NCBI RefSeq assembly: GCF_000688455.1
Contig: NZ_JIAL01000001.1
Span: 682,001-746,000, forward strand
Reading direction: 5' to 3'
Origin: Pseudacidobacterium ailaaui
GTDB taxonomy: Bacteria; Acidobacteriota; Terriglobia; Terriglobales; Acidobacteriaceae
DNA: 64,000 bases
Shown here: positions 4,090-9,914 of the stretch, one piece after another
How positions within the stretch are numbered: position 1 is the first letter of the stretch
Layout: every line of letters begins with the position of its first letter
The notes under the pieces: generated by a model
What the model was told of the DNA's origin: nothing
Seen by the model: the letters and a program-made list of their open reading frames with translations, nothing else
Databases searched by the model: none
Translations under genes and position numbers: made by a program

Positions 4090-4127
4090 GGTGACGTAAC
4101 TTCGATTGTGTAAAAGGCAGGAGGGTG
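4090..4127 (+). repeat. Left terminal inverted repeat of the IS
   Basis: Starts GGTGACGT and ends GGAGGGTG; pairs with the reverse complement of 5341-5378 with matches clustered in three blocks (outer 8, middle 9, inner 8 bases). This is the usual size for IS256-family ends. Confidence 0.88.
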
Positions 4128-4183
4128 TAAGGTGGCTTTGGCCTGACGAGCTAAAGCCGAACTTGAAAAGGAGCCTTACACCC

Positions 4184-5371
4184 ATGGCGAAGATTGTATC
4201 GATCACCGAGCATTTTCAGCACTTCTTGACCAACCTGAAGGAGAGCTTCTGGGGCGACCTGGAGCAGAAGACGCAGGTGGCCTGGAAGCGATTTCTGGAA
4301 GCGGAATCGGAGCGGTTGCGCGATCAGTATGCAGTTTGGGACAGCTACGAACGGGGAACGCGCAAGCCGGGACAGTACCGTAACGGCTATTACGAGAGGG
4401 ATTTTGTGACCCGCTTCGGCACCATCCGGCTGCGCGTGGCGCGGGCCCGCGGCAAGAGCTTTCTTCCCCGGGCGATGGAGAAGTTCCAACGCCGGGCGCC
4501 GGAGCTGGCCATACTCATCCGGGAGGCGTTTCTGCGCGGCATCTCTACCCGCCAGGTGGGTCGGCTGGTGGCCACTTTGACGGGCGAGACGATCAGTGCC
4601 CAGACCGTCTCGCGGCTGACGCGTGATCTGGATCAGGCGGTGCGGGAGTTTCATCGAGCCGCCCTGCAGGACGAATGGGCTTACCTGTTTCTGGATGGCG
4701 TGGCGTTGAAGGTGCGCCGGCCGGCGGGACGGCAGCATGTGCAGATGCTGGTGGCCTACGGCGTGCGCCGGGACGGCACCCGGCAACTGCTCGGCTTTCT
4801 GCGCACCCAGGGTGAGGGTCAGGCTCACTGGGAGGCGTTGCTTGAGGATCTCTACCGGCGCGGTCTGAAGGGCGACAAGCTGCTGCTGATCGTCACCGAC
4901 GGCTGCCCCGGATTGGCTGCCGCCATCCAGACCGTCTATCCCCGCGTAGCCCATCAACGCTGCTGGGTGCACAAGATGCGCAATATCCTCGACAAGGTGC
5001 GCAAGCGCGACCATGATGCCGTCAAGCTGGATGCCCAGGCCATCTATCTGGCCGATAGCCGCCGTCAGGCCGAGGCTGCCGCGCGCGCCTTCAGCCGCCG
5101 CTGGCGCCGGGAATATCCCACCATGGTGCGGCAACTGGAACGCGATCTGCCCGACCTGCTGGTCTTCTACCATTTTCCCAAGCACCTGTGGCGCAAGCTG
5201 CGCACCACCAACATCATTGAACGCTGCTTCGTCGAAGTGCGTCGAAGAACCAGGCCCATGGTTTGCTTCGTCAACGTGCAGTCCGTGGACCGAATCATCT
5301 ACTCCATCTTCCAGAGATTCAATCTGGAATGGAAAAACCGCACCCTCCGCGTATTTACACAAGCAGCTTGA
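4184..5371 (+). CDS. IS256-family (Mutator-type) transposase
   Basis: The 395-aa protein belongs to the IS256/MULE transposase family, which moves its element by cut-and-paste or copy-out using a DDE active site. The likely acidic residues are the Asp of [11 protein letters not shown], the Asp of IVTDGCPGL and the Glu of [14 protein letters not shown]; the [10 protein letters not shown] block between the second and third is family-typical. A longer frame reaches back to 4106, but the ATG at 4184 has an AAAGGAG ribosome site nearby and gives the usual length, so it is chosen. The long open frame on the opposite strand is a composition artefact. The protein appears full length with no frameshift. 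Confidence 0.95.
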
Positions 5372-6382: not shown

Positions 6383-6586
6383 ATGGAACAGGGTACAGTG
6401 AAATGGTTTAACGATGCCAAAGGTTTTGGCTTTATCACCCGTGATGCGAACAACGAAGACATCTTCGTGCACTTCTCCGCGATTAACTCAAACGGATTCC
6501 GCAGCCTGCAGGAAGGCCAGCGCGTCCAGTTCAATGTAGTGAAGGGCGCCAAAGGCTTCCAGGCCGAAAACGTTCAGGCTGCCTAA
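6383..6586 (+). CDS. Cold-shock domain protein
   Basis: A 67-aa single cold-shock domain starting [18 protein letters not shown]. Both RNA-binding motifs are present: KGFGFI (RNP1) and DIFVHFSAI (RNP2). The family binds single-stranded RNA and DNA and melts mRNA secondary structure, acting in the cytoplasm. The ATG has an AAAGGA ribosome site about 10 bases upstream. The gene is monocistronic, with its own long leader and a terminator just after it. Confidence 0.97.
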
Positions 6587-6605
6587 GCCGCGGATTTGTT
6601 CAAAG

Positions 6606-6645
6606 TGGCCCCGGTCAGGACATGGACCGGGGCCATTGTGTTTTA
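6606..6645 (+). terminator. Intrinsic terminator of the cold-shock gene
   Basis: An 11-bp GC-rich stem (TGGCCCCGGTC 6606-6616 with 6625-6635) is followed by TTGTGTTTT. The 3' end of the convergent 433-aa frame runs into this hairpin and stops at 6615. Confidence 0.88.
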
Positions 6646-7916
6646 GGCCGGATGGACACATTCTGAGTACCTTGCAAGGCGGTCCAGCAGCTCCACTGCC
6701 TGGACCGCGCATGGCCCATCAGCCAGGTCCAAATTGCATGCCATCTGAAGTGCCTGCAAAAGCCCCCGTAGTCGCGCTGCATCGCCTTCCTGCGCAGTGC
6801 GATATGCAGCAGGAACCCGGACAGGGCGTCTTTTTGCTGCGAAGTAAGCGGATCAAATGTATCGCGCCAATGCGGGCGATACTCCTCATCTGCTTCAAGA
6901 AACCGAAGCAGATGATCGGAACCTCCCGCCTTTGCGTCCCCCTCCGAGACCTCTGCCGGTGGCATATGTCCCTGAGACAGCACAGCAGCACATAGAAGTC
7001 CCATCACATATGCCGTATGATACGCAGTCGCCAGTCTATATCGTGTTCGTTCAGTTCCAGATCGCGCTTCAATCTCACAGATGCGGGTCCCCGGAGTCGG
7101 CAAGAATCCGGCCTTGTCTTCCACATGCGCAAGTACTCGGAAGGCAAATGTGGCCGCAGGACTCCACGGTTCTCCCGTCAGCGGCCAGGTTAAGAGGATC
7201 TCGCCTGCAACATCATAGTCCTGCTGATCGAGACAATATGCCAGCAACGCTTCAGCCTCTGCCAGCAGCACATGGCGCGGACGAGGCAGCGGCACAGGGT
7301 GGATACCGAAATCGGTGACATACATCAACGCATGAGTAAAGGCATACATGTCCTCGCGCCTGCAGGACAGCAGGTCCATCGAATGGTTCAGAATGGACAA
7401 ATGTGCCATTTCCGAGCGCCGCTTGTTCGATGCAAGCCTGGGCACTCCTAATGCGGACCATTCTTTTTCCAACATGCGGTGCGGAACGCGCTCACGTCCT
7501 GCACTGGCCCGCGAACCGAGTGCATGTTGCAGCAATGCGTCAAACGCTGCATCCGGGTACCCAAGGCGATTCAAACAAAGATGCCCTAACGCATATTCCC
7601 ACGCCGCAGACGGTTCTACACATACGCCCAGCCTGGCCCGCTCGTTGCGTGCATGAGGAGCAAGACCGTGAGCAATGCCCTTTACTCGTTCCTGAATTTC
7701 AGGTTGCACGACCTGCCCCGCAGCAAGAAGCAGGACGGCGGTTTCAGAAAGGATTTTTTCCGGACGAACATTTTTTGTGGAATCCGTGCTGTCTATATAT
7801 CCATCCGGGACCAAGTGCTCCACTGTAAGTTTTGCGATATCAAGAGCATGGCAGAGGCGGCGGACAAGATCGTCGGTCCGGCTTTGCCGCTGGGCAGGTC
7901 CTCTCGCTTCTGCCAT
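6615..7916 (-). CDS. Uncharacterised 433-aa alpha-helical protein
   Basis: I do not recognise this protein with confidence. It has no signal peptide or membrane span and reads as mostly helical, rich in Leu, Ala, His and Arg. Blocks that look conserved are EYALGHLCLNRLGYPDAAF, RVPHRMLEKEW, THALMYVTDFG and YHTAYVMGLLCA. From memory these resemble the DUF6895 type of domain, but I could not check. The ATG has a GAGGGAG ribosome site and lies 9 bp behind the 81-aa gene, so the two form one unit. The last residues are encoded inside the terminator of the convergent cold-shock gene, so the very C-terminus may be a read-through tail. Confidence 0.7.
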   Translation of the reverse strand: MAEARGPAQRQSRTDDLVRRLCHALDIAKLTVEHLVPDGYIDSTDSTKNVRPEKILSETAVLLLAAGQVVQPEIQERVKGIAHGLAPHARNERARLGVCVEPSAAWEYALGHLCLNRLGYPDAAFDALLQHALGSRASAGRERVPHRMLEKEWSALGVPRLASNKRRSEMAHLSILNHSMDLLSCRREDMYAFTHALMYVTDFGIHPVPLPRPRHVLLAEAEALLAYCLDQQDYDVAGEILLTWPLTGEPWSPAATFAFRVLAHVEDKAGFLPTPGTRICEIEARSGTERTRYRLATAYHTAYVMGLLCAAVLSQGHMPPAEVSEGDAKAGGSDHLLRFLEADEEYRPHWRDTFDPLTSQQKDALSGFLLHIALRRKAMQRDYGGFCRHFRWHAIWTWLMGHARSRQWSCWTALQGTQNVSIRPKTQWPRSMS

Positions 7917-7925
7917 GCTCCCTCG

Positions 7926-8171
7926 TTACTGGCGAAGTTCGCCTGCGTTGGCCGCAAGCGAGCCCAGGTCTTCCACCGGAGTGCCCGGATTGTAGATGCG
8001 GTAAATGTGAATAAAAATGCGATTGGTTCCGCAGAAAAAGTCCCACGGCTCCTCGGCCACTGCAAGTGATGGTCCAAGTTCGCTGACGGCCTTGCCAATG
8101 GCGGCAAAATCAACAGCTTTCGTATCAAGCAGTTGCTTGACGATCTTTCTGTGCTGATCAATATTTCCCAT
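7926..8171 (-). CDS. Uncharacterised 81-aa protein, partner of the 433-aa gene
   Basis: The frame is open further upstream, but the ATG at 8171 has a textbook AAGGAG site 8 bases before it, giving MGNIDQHRKIVKQLLDTKAV and 81 residues. The N-terminal half is charged and helical; the centre is aromatic (EEPWDFFCGTNRIFIHIYRI) with a single Cys; the C-terminus is small and polar. No signal peptide or known domain is seen. Only 9 bp separate its stop from the 433-aa gene. The size, the leader-like first half and the coupling to one larger protein would fit an accessory subunit or a precursor peptide, but nothing in the sequence decides this. Confidence 0.7.
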   Translation of the reverse strand: MGNIDQHRKIVKQLLDTKAVDFAAIGKAVSELGPSLAVAEEPWDFFCGTNRIFIHIYRIYNPGTPVEDLGSLAANAGELRQ

Positions 8172-8262
8172 GTGAATTTCTCCTTGTCTCTCGCGGAATT
8201 GCGTAGAGGGGAGATTCCCGCGACTGTGAGGATGGTGCCGGCAGAAAGAAATCTGTTTCAGC

Positions 8263-8295
8263 ACAAAAGAAAACCCGCCGCGAATCGCAGCGGGT
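8263..8295 (-). terminator. Terminator of the outer-membrane barrel gene
   Basis: On the minus strand, ACCCGC and GCG pair with CGC and GCGGGT around an ATT loop (8273-8295), followed by TTTCTTTTGT. It lies about 20 bp after the stop of the barrel gene and upstream of the 81-aa gene, so the two units are probably transcribed separately. Confidence 0.85.
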
Positions 8296-8315
8296 CATCC
8301 ATGAACGCAGGTACT

Positions 8316-8948
8316 CTAAAATTTCAGATACAACCCGACCATCGGCTCACTGGTCAGACGCCAGGTCCCCGTCTTGTAGCGCACATCGTCATAATCCGGA
8401 GTGGGATAGTATAACGCCCGGTACTGCACCCGCACCCCAAAGTGCGACGTCAGAAGAGGAGCGTTCACGCCCAGGCCAAAGTTGAAGGCAGGCTTTGCCT
8501 GCGCGCTGGCCCGCTGTCCTCCATTCAGCGATGGGGAAAAGAGCAGGGCGCTCACTCCGGCCAGCCCGAAAGGCTTGATGCCGAGAAGTCCCGGAGCGCT
8601 TACCAGGTAGGACCCGCCAAACTCATGCACATTGTGCTGCACGCCAAAAACATTGGACGAGTAGTTGTCCGTGTAGCGCGTATACCCGTAGCTTGCCTCA
8701 AATCCCATCCACGGGTGGTAAATGTGCCGGAAGGCCGCCTGTCCGCCCACAGACTTCGTGGGGTCCACCGTCACACCGTCCCCACTCACCGATTGAGTGA
8801 ACTGGCCAAAAGCGCTCACGGAAATGTCGCTGTTGTGAAAAACGTGAGCAGGGTTTTGCGCCCGCGCCGTAACGGTGAAGACGACCCATCCCAGCAGCGC
8901 AACAAATAAGAACGAAGACTTCCACCAATTCCGGAAATTTGCCAACAT
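8316..8948 (-). CDS. Outer-membrane beta-barrel protein
   Basis: A 210-aa exported protein: a signal peptide (hydrophobic core FLFVALLGWVVF, cleavage near ARAQN) is followed by alternating aromatic and polar strands ending in GLYLKF, the typical C-terminal strand with a final Phe. This is the 8-stranded OmpA/OmpW-like barrel pattern; such small barrels are frequent in Acidobacteria. Upstream in-frame starts exist as far as 9107, which would overlap the divergent ribH gene. The ATG at 8948 has a GGGAGA site 6 bases away and leads straight into the signal peptide, so it is preferred. Ligand unknown. Confidence 0.82.
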   Translation of the reverse strand: MLANFRNWWKSSFLFVALLGWVVFTVTARAQNPAHVFHNSDISVSAFGQFTQSVSGDGVTVDPTKSVGGQAAFRHIYHPWMGFEASYGYTRYTDNYSSNVFGVQHNVHEFGGSYLVSAPGLLGIKPFGLAGVSALLFSPSLNGGQRASAQAKPAFNFGLGVNAPLLTSHFGVRVQYRALYYPTPDYDDVRYKTGTWRLTSEPMVGLYLKF

Positions 8949-9050
8949 CTGGTCTCCCATAGTCATAGTAGACGATTGTTGCGTCCGAAAGGGGAGGAAC
9001 CCCCGGGGATGCAATTTCCGCTTTGTCCCCTGCGCTGATAAAGTCAAATT

Positions 9051-9914
9051 ATGATTAAGGCCGTTACCGTAGTGCAGCAGACCAGCACTCCGGCAGAATT
9101 TGACCAACTGGCAGGATTTTTTTCCGCGCTTGGGTTTGAAAAAGGCAAAGGCTGGGAGACCAGTGATGGCCGGGGCAGCTCTTTTCTCGCTCCACTAGGC
9201 AATCTTGAGTTTGTGCTGGGAAGCCTCCCCGCTTCTTCCACCATTCTGATTGAAGTCACCAGCCTGGATTCTGTCCGCGAAGTGGCCAGTCGATGGCTCA
9301 AGCAGAACACGACTGCTTCCCGCATCAGCGAAATTTCTGAAACAGACTGGAATTCGCGCCTCTTTACCGTCGAACTGCCCCCGGCCGCTTCCTTCACCTT
9401 CTGGGAATGGATCGATCCTCTGAAAGGCAAGCCAATAGCGCTCGAAGGCGACCTCTCCGCAGAGGGAATGCGCTTTGCGATTGTCGTCTCCCGCTGGAAT
9501 GCGGTCATCACCGACCGCCTGCTGCAAGGTGCGCTCGATGCTCTGCTGCGCAGCGGGGCCAGAAAAGAGAACGTCAGGATCCTGCGCGTTCCCGGCGCCT
9601 GGGAGATTCCCTCCGCTGCGCGAAAGGCCGCCGAATCCGGGAATTTTGACGCCATCATCACCCTCGGCGTTCTGCTACGCGGCGAGACGGCCCACTATGA
9701 AGCCATCTACAACGAAGTGGCGCGGGGCATCGGCCAGTCCCAGCAGGAAACCGGAATTCCCCACACCTTCGGGGTACTTACCTGCGAAACCCTCGAACAG
9801 GCGCTCGATCGCGCTGGCCTCAAGATGGGCAATAAAGGCTTTGAGGCCGCTGCCGCTGCCATTGAGATGGTCTCTTTGCATCGCAAACTGGAAACCGGAG
9901 CTGCCGCGAAATGA
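9051..9914 (+). CDS. ribH: 6,7-dimethyl-8-ribityllumazine synthase with N-terminal glyoxalase-like domain
   Basis: Residues from about 133 to 283 are a complete lumazine synthase: SRWNAVIT, VPGAWEIP (180-187), GVLLRGETAHYE with the catalytic His215, FGVLTCETLEQALDRAG and GNKGFEAA. It joins 5-amino-ribitylaminouracil with a four-carbon phosphate to make the riboflavin precursor. Ordinary RibH is about 155 aa. The first 120 residues here are an added domain that looks like a VOC/glyoxalase-type fold (FFSALGFEKGKGWE, FLAPLGNLEFVLG). No metal-binding role can be assigned. The frame is continuous, so this is a real fusion rather than two genes. It overlaps nusB by four bases. Confidence 0.92.
   Translation: MIKAVTVVQQTSTPAEFDQLAGFFSALGFEKGKGWETSDGRGSSFLAPLGNLEFVLGSLPASSTILIEVTSLDSVREVASRWLKQNTTASRISEISETDWNSRLFTVELPPAASFTFWEWIDPLKGKPIALEGDLSAEGMRFAIVVSRWNAVITDRLLQGALDALLRSGARKENVRILRVPGAWEIPSAARKAAESGNFDAIITLGVLLRGETAHYEAIYNEVARGIGQSQQETGIPHTFGVLTCETLEQALDRAGLKMGNKGFEAAAAAIEMVSLHRKLETGAAAK

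Follow-up and report, generated by a model that had tools for sequence, protein, structure and literature searches.

Within the window, by which we mean the whole stretch of 64,000 nucleotides of Pseudacidobacterium ailaaui DNA that was analysed, the minus strand carries two open reading frames of 81 and 433 amino acids at a spacing of 9 bp. This layout had been described in the original prediction and was borne out, as were the good ribosome-binding sites claimed for both genes (AAGGAG at 8180-8185 and GAGGGAG at 7918-7924). The unit is flanked by a cold-shock-like gene on the plus strand (6383-6586, named by eye) and, on the other side, by an outer-membrane beta-barrel gene on the minus strand (8316-9107, Pfam OMP_b-brl), from which it is separated by a hairpin at 8272-8296. 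The following features were assigned:

7926-8171, minus strand: small gene, 81 aa, ATG start, proposed precursor peptide (open reading frame, relatives, Ka/Ks)
6615-7916, minus strand: large gene as read, 433 aa, ATG start; in the frame shared with relatives it ends at 6643
8180-8185, minus strand: ribosome-binding site AAGGAG of the small gene (sequence)
7918-7924, minus strand: ribosome-binding site GAGGGAG of the large gene (sequence)
8272-8296, minus strand: terminator-like hairpin 3' of the upstream beta-barrel gene, before the unit
6604-6637, plus strand: terminator-like hairpin 3' of the convergent cold-shock-like gene, overlapping the end of the 433-aa reading
6987-7847, minus strand: DUF6895 domain, residues 24-310, predicted alpha/alpha toroid (Pfam and model)
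8058-8171, minus strand: leader-like front of the small protein, residues 1-38 (alignment)
7929-8057, minus strand: core-like back of the small protein, residues 39-81, with WDFFCGTNRIFIHIY; presumed boundary (alignment)
6757-6774, minus strand: approximate stretch where the large gene leaves the frame shared by its relatives (comparison with relatives)
6585-8315, no strand: segment that lacks a counterpart in the congeneric genome G396; the matching flanks end at 6584 and resume at 8316

The two-gene unit is real. Substitution rates in the small gene are low at non-synonymous sites, with Ka of 0.024-0.057 over Ks of 0.196-0.207 among the loci L035, L036 and L037, and Ka of 0.184 over Ks of 1.105 between the window and L027. 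Ka/Ks of the large gene is likewise low, with Ks against L027 being saturated. Because of these low ratios both frames look like real genes under purifying selection. Between 6300 and 9200 one sigma-70-like site was found, on the plus strand, where 1.5 are expected by chance.

The large protein follows its relatives up to RDYGG at residue 385, while the remaining 48 residues of the 433-aa reading do not. An alternative frame prolongs the match to relatives with LLQALQMACNLDLADGPCAVQAVELLDRLARYSECVHPA and reaches a stop at 6643-6645, similar to the ends of the relatives, and the final codons of the 433-aa reading fall within the terminator-like hairpin at 6604-6637. Judged from this comparison, the native protein does not end as in the 433-aa reading, and the cause, located at about 6757-6774, would be either a frameshift mutation or a sequencing error. 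As 48 residues of the enzyme are read out of frame, the window copy may be impaired. It is conceivable, although unlikely, that the unit of this genome is a decaying copy without function, a view compatible with the precursor-enzyme reading developed below. Besides the frame change, the window has the longest end branch of its trio (0.77 versus 0.22 and 0.31), to which the shifted tail contributes; however, the enzyme keeps every conserved polar residue, the small gene has an uninterrupted, conserved frame, and an error of sequencing may account for the shift.

According to the original prediction, neither protein could be assigned securely to a family. For the small protein this stands, since it was matched by neither Pfam nor NCBIfam at E 1, nor by PADLOC; a comparison with PHROGs gave one weak match (E 0.065). 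The large protein, in contrast, is a member of DUF6895 (PF21836), with an E-value of 5.9e-54 and 183.8 bits versus a cut-off of 23.8. The match spans residues 24-310 and profile positions 4-289 of 289, and in the window group a C-terminal region of about 100 residues follows the Pfam domain. DUF6895 is the only Pfam match of the large protein, which has none in NCBIfam, PADLOC or PHROGs; NCBIfam matched no protein tried. DUF6895 was found in 12/396 Acidobacteriota genomes at E 0.001 (10 over the cut-off) and in 7/346 genomes of the phylum of G458 (6 over the cut-off), which is Actinomycetota by the tree label of L039. A search with the window's large protein in 61 genomes matched the window's own genome and none other, the congener G396 included.

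The conserved residues of DUF6895 were derived in the present comparison, independent of any published list. A first count used 31 sequences, 18 from the window group and 13 others with tandem copies included (L022-L026 and L087 were left out); six further sequences were then added, each of which has all nine residues. K54, E58, T194, H195, E239 and G270 are invariant in 37/37 sequences including the window's (31/31 plus 6/6). Y191, D235 and H300 are kept in 36 of the 37, with L020 as the exception each time. Thus, eight polar residues (K54, E58, Y191, T194, H195, D235, E239, H300) are invariant in 36/37 sequences, and the window protein has every one of them.

A model of the large protein calculated with AlphaFold2 from 14 sequences reached a pLDDT of 85.5 and a pTM of 0.85, and from it the protein is predicted to belong to the fold class of the alpha/alpha toroids. 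Using VIA-align, the best alignments of its residues 9-318 were with such toroids. The top neighbour is the terpene cyclase MstE (6sbc, Z 15.0, 5.0 A over 269 residues), followed by a squalene-hopene cyclase entry (8paj, Z 14.9) and the GH105 protein 4ce7 (Z 14.4), with the sugar 2-epimerase 5zig scoring lower (Z 12.3). Since a Z of 14 is stated as the typical best for mostly helical models and 15 barely exceeds it, the toroid indicates a fold class at most and not a function. In a Foldseek search of the PDB the best match of the model had an E-value of only 0.29. Sequence searches of the PDB gave nothing for the window's large protein and nothing better than E 1 for a profile of its group. 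A lectin chain matched 50 residues of an actinomycete DUF6895 protein at E 5e-5, which looks like chance.

The pairing of the small and the large gene is well supported. It is present at 19 loci, the window included, one of them with a stop inside the small gene. The carriers belong to the Acidobacteriota, Pseudomonadota, Bacteroidota, Gemmatimonadota and Actinomycetota, the last represented by one MAG, and a sixth label comes from one MAG labelled Saccharibacteria. A scan of 84,980 genomes with the alignment of the large protein yielded 14 loci out of 66 pattern matches. At 13 of these a relative of the small gene lies immediately upstream, with an overlap of at most 17 bases or a gap of at most 38 bases by the start codons that we chose; the exception is L030. 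The pair also occurs in two Acidobacteriota genomes (G066 and G119; loci L017 and L018), on a Gemmatirosa plasmid (L041, with 69 bases between the genes), in G918 and, with the stop inside the small gene, in G1157. Among viral contigs, 43 stretches fit the pattern and none encodes a relative.

Starting from the small protein gave the same picture. Matches were obtained in 3/396 Acidobacteriota genomes, in 3/177, 2/180 and 1/151 genomes of the families of G453, G457 and G450, respectively, and in one plasmid record. As a check on the pairing it had been proposed to ask whether homologues of the small protein always sit next to the large one, and all 10 places found adjoin a large gene, those in G918 and G1157 being the only new ones. 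Whole-genome searches of 13 genomes from the scan set (that of L040 was left out) detected the small gene in 12 and missed it in the genome of L030. When E-values up to 1 were allowed in seven genomes, the matches outside the unit (E 0.06 to 0.9; in G066, G259, G918 and G1157) were taken as noise.

Two relatives of the large gene, L020 and L030, stand without the small gene, which is missing from the genome of L020 even at E 1. Both are abnormal. In L030 similarity to the large protein begins at residue 109, so that K54 and E58 are missing, and G270 is replaced by N; L020 has lost three otherwise invariant residues (Y191, D235, H300). The loss of conserved residues in both small-gene-free copies fits an enzyme and a peptide that work together, two cases being few. 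The original prediction would have denied the unit novelty if large proteins occurred without the small one and matched a family with a known job. This applies only in part: one job has been reported for the family, whereas the two copies that lack the small gene are these abnormal ones. In G1157 (L075) the stop interrupts the small gene, while the large frame beside it runs on uninterrupted over 338 residues and keeps K54, E58, Y191, T194, H195, D235, E239, G270 and H300.

In the alignment of 17 small proteins, V20, D21, F22 and G33 are invariant, and M1, K18, A19, A24, G26, P34, F46, C47 and G48 are nearly so. The single Cys pointed out in the original prediction is nearly invariant, with L041 lacking a Cys at this column. 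The consensus of the front is approximately NHxEIVKxLLxSKAVDFxAIGKxVAELGPS. For a comparison of identities the protein was split after residue 38 and the sequences were divided into 13 main and four divergent members. Mean identity within the main members is 0.62 in the front and 0.50 in the back; between the main and the divergent members it is 0.40 and 0.19, respectively, and the back half of L038 has an identity of 0.08. A front that is kept and a back that varies towards distant members resembles a RiPP precursor, a pattern that appears weaker within the main group. The structural model, which is of low confidence (pLDDT 60.7), has two helices in the front, then two strands and a helix. 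Distances between small proteins correlate with those between large proteins over all 18 loci used (r 0.74, 0/2000 permutations); within the main 12 the correlation is not significant (r 0.127, 478/2000 permutations).

Small genes in front of DUF6895 genes are also found outside the window group. In the actinomycete genomes with two DUF6895 matches (L069-L073), a small gene of 58-61 aa lies in front in all five cases, its product ending in LLSPPTPRPKKG in four of them and in LLISPPTPRPKTETK in L072, and a protein of 232-240 aa is encoded between the peptide and the DUF6895 genes. The same gene order is present on a Streptomyces fungicidicus plasmid (L085), annotated there as hypothetical proteins, so that L069-L073 and L085 share a set of four genes: one for a peptide of 58-62 aa, one for a protein of about 235 aa and two for DUF6895. 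The peptides of L069 and L073 and the 235-aa protein of L069 have no Pfam or NCBIfam match. A similar arrangement with one DUF6895 match was seen in Kitasatospora fiedleri (L086), and small genes lie just upstream of the DUF6895 genes in Pseudalkalibacillus (L088) and at L089 and L090. In Cupriavidus (L087) a frame of 125 aa lies upstream. A crude look at six other Acidobacteriota DUF6895 loci (L019 and L021-L025) revealed no convincing small gene; L012, L013, L026 and G473, all below the Pfam cut-off, and the S. chartreusis record were left out of this inspection.

By sequence, the peptides of these loci fall into groups, namely L069-L073 with L085 and L086, L089 with L090 and weakly L088, and L016 alone. 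None has a detectable relation to the small protein of the window (best E 0.02, for L016), and they therefore support the precursor reading by position only. The locus L016 (6704-9924, Acidobacteriota) comprises a 60-aa frame ending in NSTICGNWFCVTP, DUF6895, a second protein of 300 aa and, downstream, a PhyH-type protein, and is possibly a separate RiPP cluster. The second protein behind DUF6895 at L016 and L088 resembles the C-terminal half of the longer DUF6895 proteins of L089 and L090 (E 9e-6 to 6e-8 for L016 versus the others), and this occurrence as separate genes at the former loci and as a fusion at the latter links DUF6895 with the second protein. The idea that the extra C-terminal region of the window group corresponds to these second proteins and C-terminal halves, or else to the protein of about 235 aa from actinomycetes, is unsupported, since profile comparisons gave E 0.048 over 11 columns and E 0.18.

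The unit was probably spread by horizontal transfer. Both its flanks have matches in the congener G396 (81% and 76%), where 442 bp lie between them versus 1.7 kb in the window; this site shows no trace of either gene, and a hairpin similar to that at 6604-6637 is seen by eye at the equivalent position. As the tree is weakly supported (3 of 15 inner branches are well supported), the argument for transfer is drawn from the patchy presence and from the congener's site rather than from the tree. At a distance of 1.2 kb from the pair, a Mutator-family transposase is encoded at 4106-5371. A crude comparison of 20 loci, in which frames of at least 70 aa were picked by length and opposite-strand frames of the pair recurred in five loci, found no gene apart from the pair in more than three loci.

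The original prediction had offered a precursor-enzyme pair, a toxin-antitoxin-like pair and a two-subunit enzyme as options. Of these the first is favoured by the epimerase reported for DUF6895, the 19 linked loci, the different conservation of front and back, and the peptides at other DUF6895 loci. We propose, with a probability of roughly 55%, that the unit is a RiPP-like cassette consisting of an 81-aa precursor and a DUF6895 enzyme that performs Calpha epimerisation. What the loci offer in favour of a RiPP is a precursor-sized gene beside that of a modifying enzyme and a linkage that is kept, with 19 loci versus two abnormal copies without the small gene. The DUF6895 enzyme would bind the conserved, helical residues 1 to about 38 of the precursor, a putative leader to judge from the alignment, and the back half with the aromatic WDFFCGTNRIFIHIY stretch would enter the pocket of the alpha/alpha toroid. 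There, Lys54, Glu58, Tyr191, Thr194, His195, Asp235, Glu239 and His300, which presumably share one pocket, would supply the acid/base residues. The likeliest reaction would be Calpha epimerisation, from L to D, on at least one core residue. Later cleavage and export would be left to proteins encoded elsewhere; no further gene recurred in more than three of the 20 loci of the crude comparison. Several findings speak against this reading: neither a cleavage site for the leader nor a protease or transporter was identified; six other Acidobacteriota DUF6895 loci showed no convincing small gene; the back half is well conserved within the main group (0.50), which also fits a structural subunit; G1157 has an interrupted small gene next to an open large stretch with its polar residues; and the distance correlation is absent within the main 12.

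For epimerisation itself we infer from two sources, the conserved residues and the title of a work on one reported member. The toroid fold serves many reactions, among them those of type II terpene cyclases, GH105 hydrolases and sugar 2-epimerases, and the window group has its extra C-terminal region of about 100 residues. A precursor might thus be acted on in the toroid pocket by another chemistry such as cyclisation, elimination or isomerisation. We consider this rather improbable in view of the polar residues shared with distant DUF6895 members and of the sole reported member, which is called an epimerase in its title as given in PMC13352647. Taking both chemistries together, a precursor with its modifying enzyme is a quite probable description of the unit.

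Less probable still is a two-subunit enzyme, in which the small protein would be a stable partner or a leader-binding subunit and the DUF6895 protein would act elsewhere. Near-constant linkage would suit such a partner, as would the conservation of the small protein over its full length within the main group; but its back half is replaced in L038 and L041 while the polar residues of the enzyme stay, and unrelated small peptides occupy a similar place at other DUF6895 loci. In addition, the helix-helix-strand-strand-helix order predicted for it (pLDDT 60.7) differs from that of RRE/PqqD domains. A toxin-antitoxin or defence unit, which the small size, the patchy distribution and the absence from the congener's matching site might suggest, is very improbable, as nothing else speaks for it, Pfam, NCBIfam and PADLOC do not match the small protein, PHROGs does so once and weakly (E 0.065), and the large protein is a DUF6895 toroid without a match to any toxin or DNA-binding family.

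If the precursor-epimerase reading is true, peptide epimerases could be found by the rule of a small ORF in front of DUF6895, a module of two genes could put D-residues into peptides in E. coli, and the lasso tailoring enzyme would be part of a wider family of peptide-modifying toroids. More tentatively, the unit may stand for a RiPP class not described before, whose hallmark would be an alpha/alpha-toroid epimerase without radical chemistry. It would form a complete and mobile two-gene module in at least five phyla, and its product would have a conserved aromatic core that holds a single Cys; sister modules in which the enzyme family is combined with unrelated precursors would occur in actinomycetes and Bacillota. 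In open-licence papers no description of the unit as a stand-alone module was found, and the name DUF6895 was encountered only in PMC13352647.

Among the systems available for comparison, the actinomycete loci (L085, L069-L073) are similar in having DUF6895 behind a small peptide gene. They differ by a peptide family, with the end LLSPP(T/A)PRPKKG in 5/6, that has no detectable relation to the window's, by a gene of about 235 codons that separates those of peptide and enzyme, and by two DUF6895 copies. Lasso systems differ as well: in none of the 12 genomes tested does the unit have a lasso B2-type gene as its neighbour. With PF13471, which we take to be the lasso B2-type family, seven of these 12 carrier genomes (some of them drafts) gave no match, and the other five have matches away from the unit, on other contigs or 660 kb off, two of them barely over the cut-off. 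PF13471 is not specific to lasso clusters, as it matched 2/14 control genomes. Its absence or distance in the carriers speaks against a need for lasso machinery. The one match in the window genome lies 660 kb away beside a PqqD-type gene; this lasso-type set (L092, G000:C1:1349826-1350146) includes PqqD-type, Transglut_core3 and nucleotidyltransferase-like (by eye) proteins.

The lasso epimerase MslH is a metallophosphatase-type protein, unlike the window enzyme, which belongs to DUF6895. MslH resembles the proposed enzyme in being a peptide epimerase that acts on a RiPP precursor, by metal-dependent acid/base chemistry according to the title of PMC10406935. With the epipeptides (YydF/EpeX and YydG; PMC7026026) the unit shares a core of a small precursor gene and an epimerase gene; however, YydG is a radical SAM enzyme whereas the window enzyme is a predicted DUF6895 toroid, and the yydFGHIJ locus has further genes while none accompanies the window pair at more than three of 20 loci. 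The closest known system is the lasso peptide epimerase of the DUF6895 family (Shi et al., ACS Catal. 2026, as listed in the references of PMC13352647). It shares with the window enzyme the Pfam family and a ribosomal peptide as likely substrate, and, as far as its title tells, the window unit differs from it in having a precursor family of its own and the extra C-terminal region.
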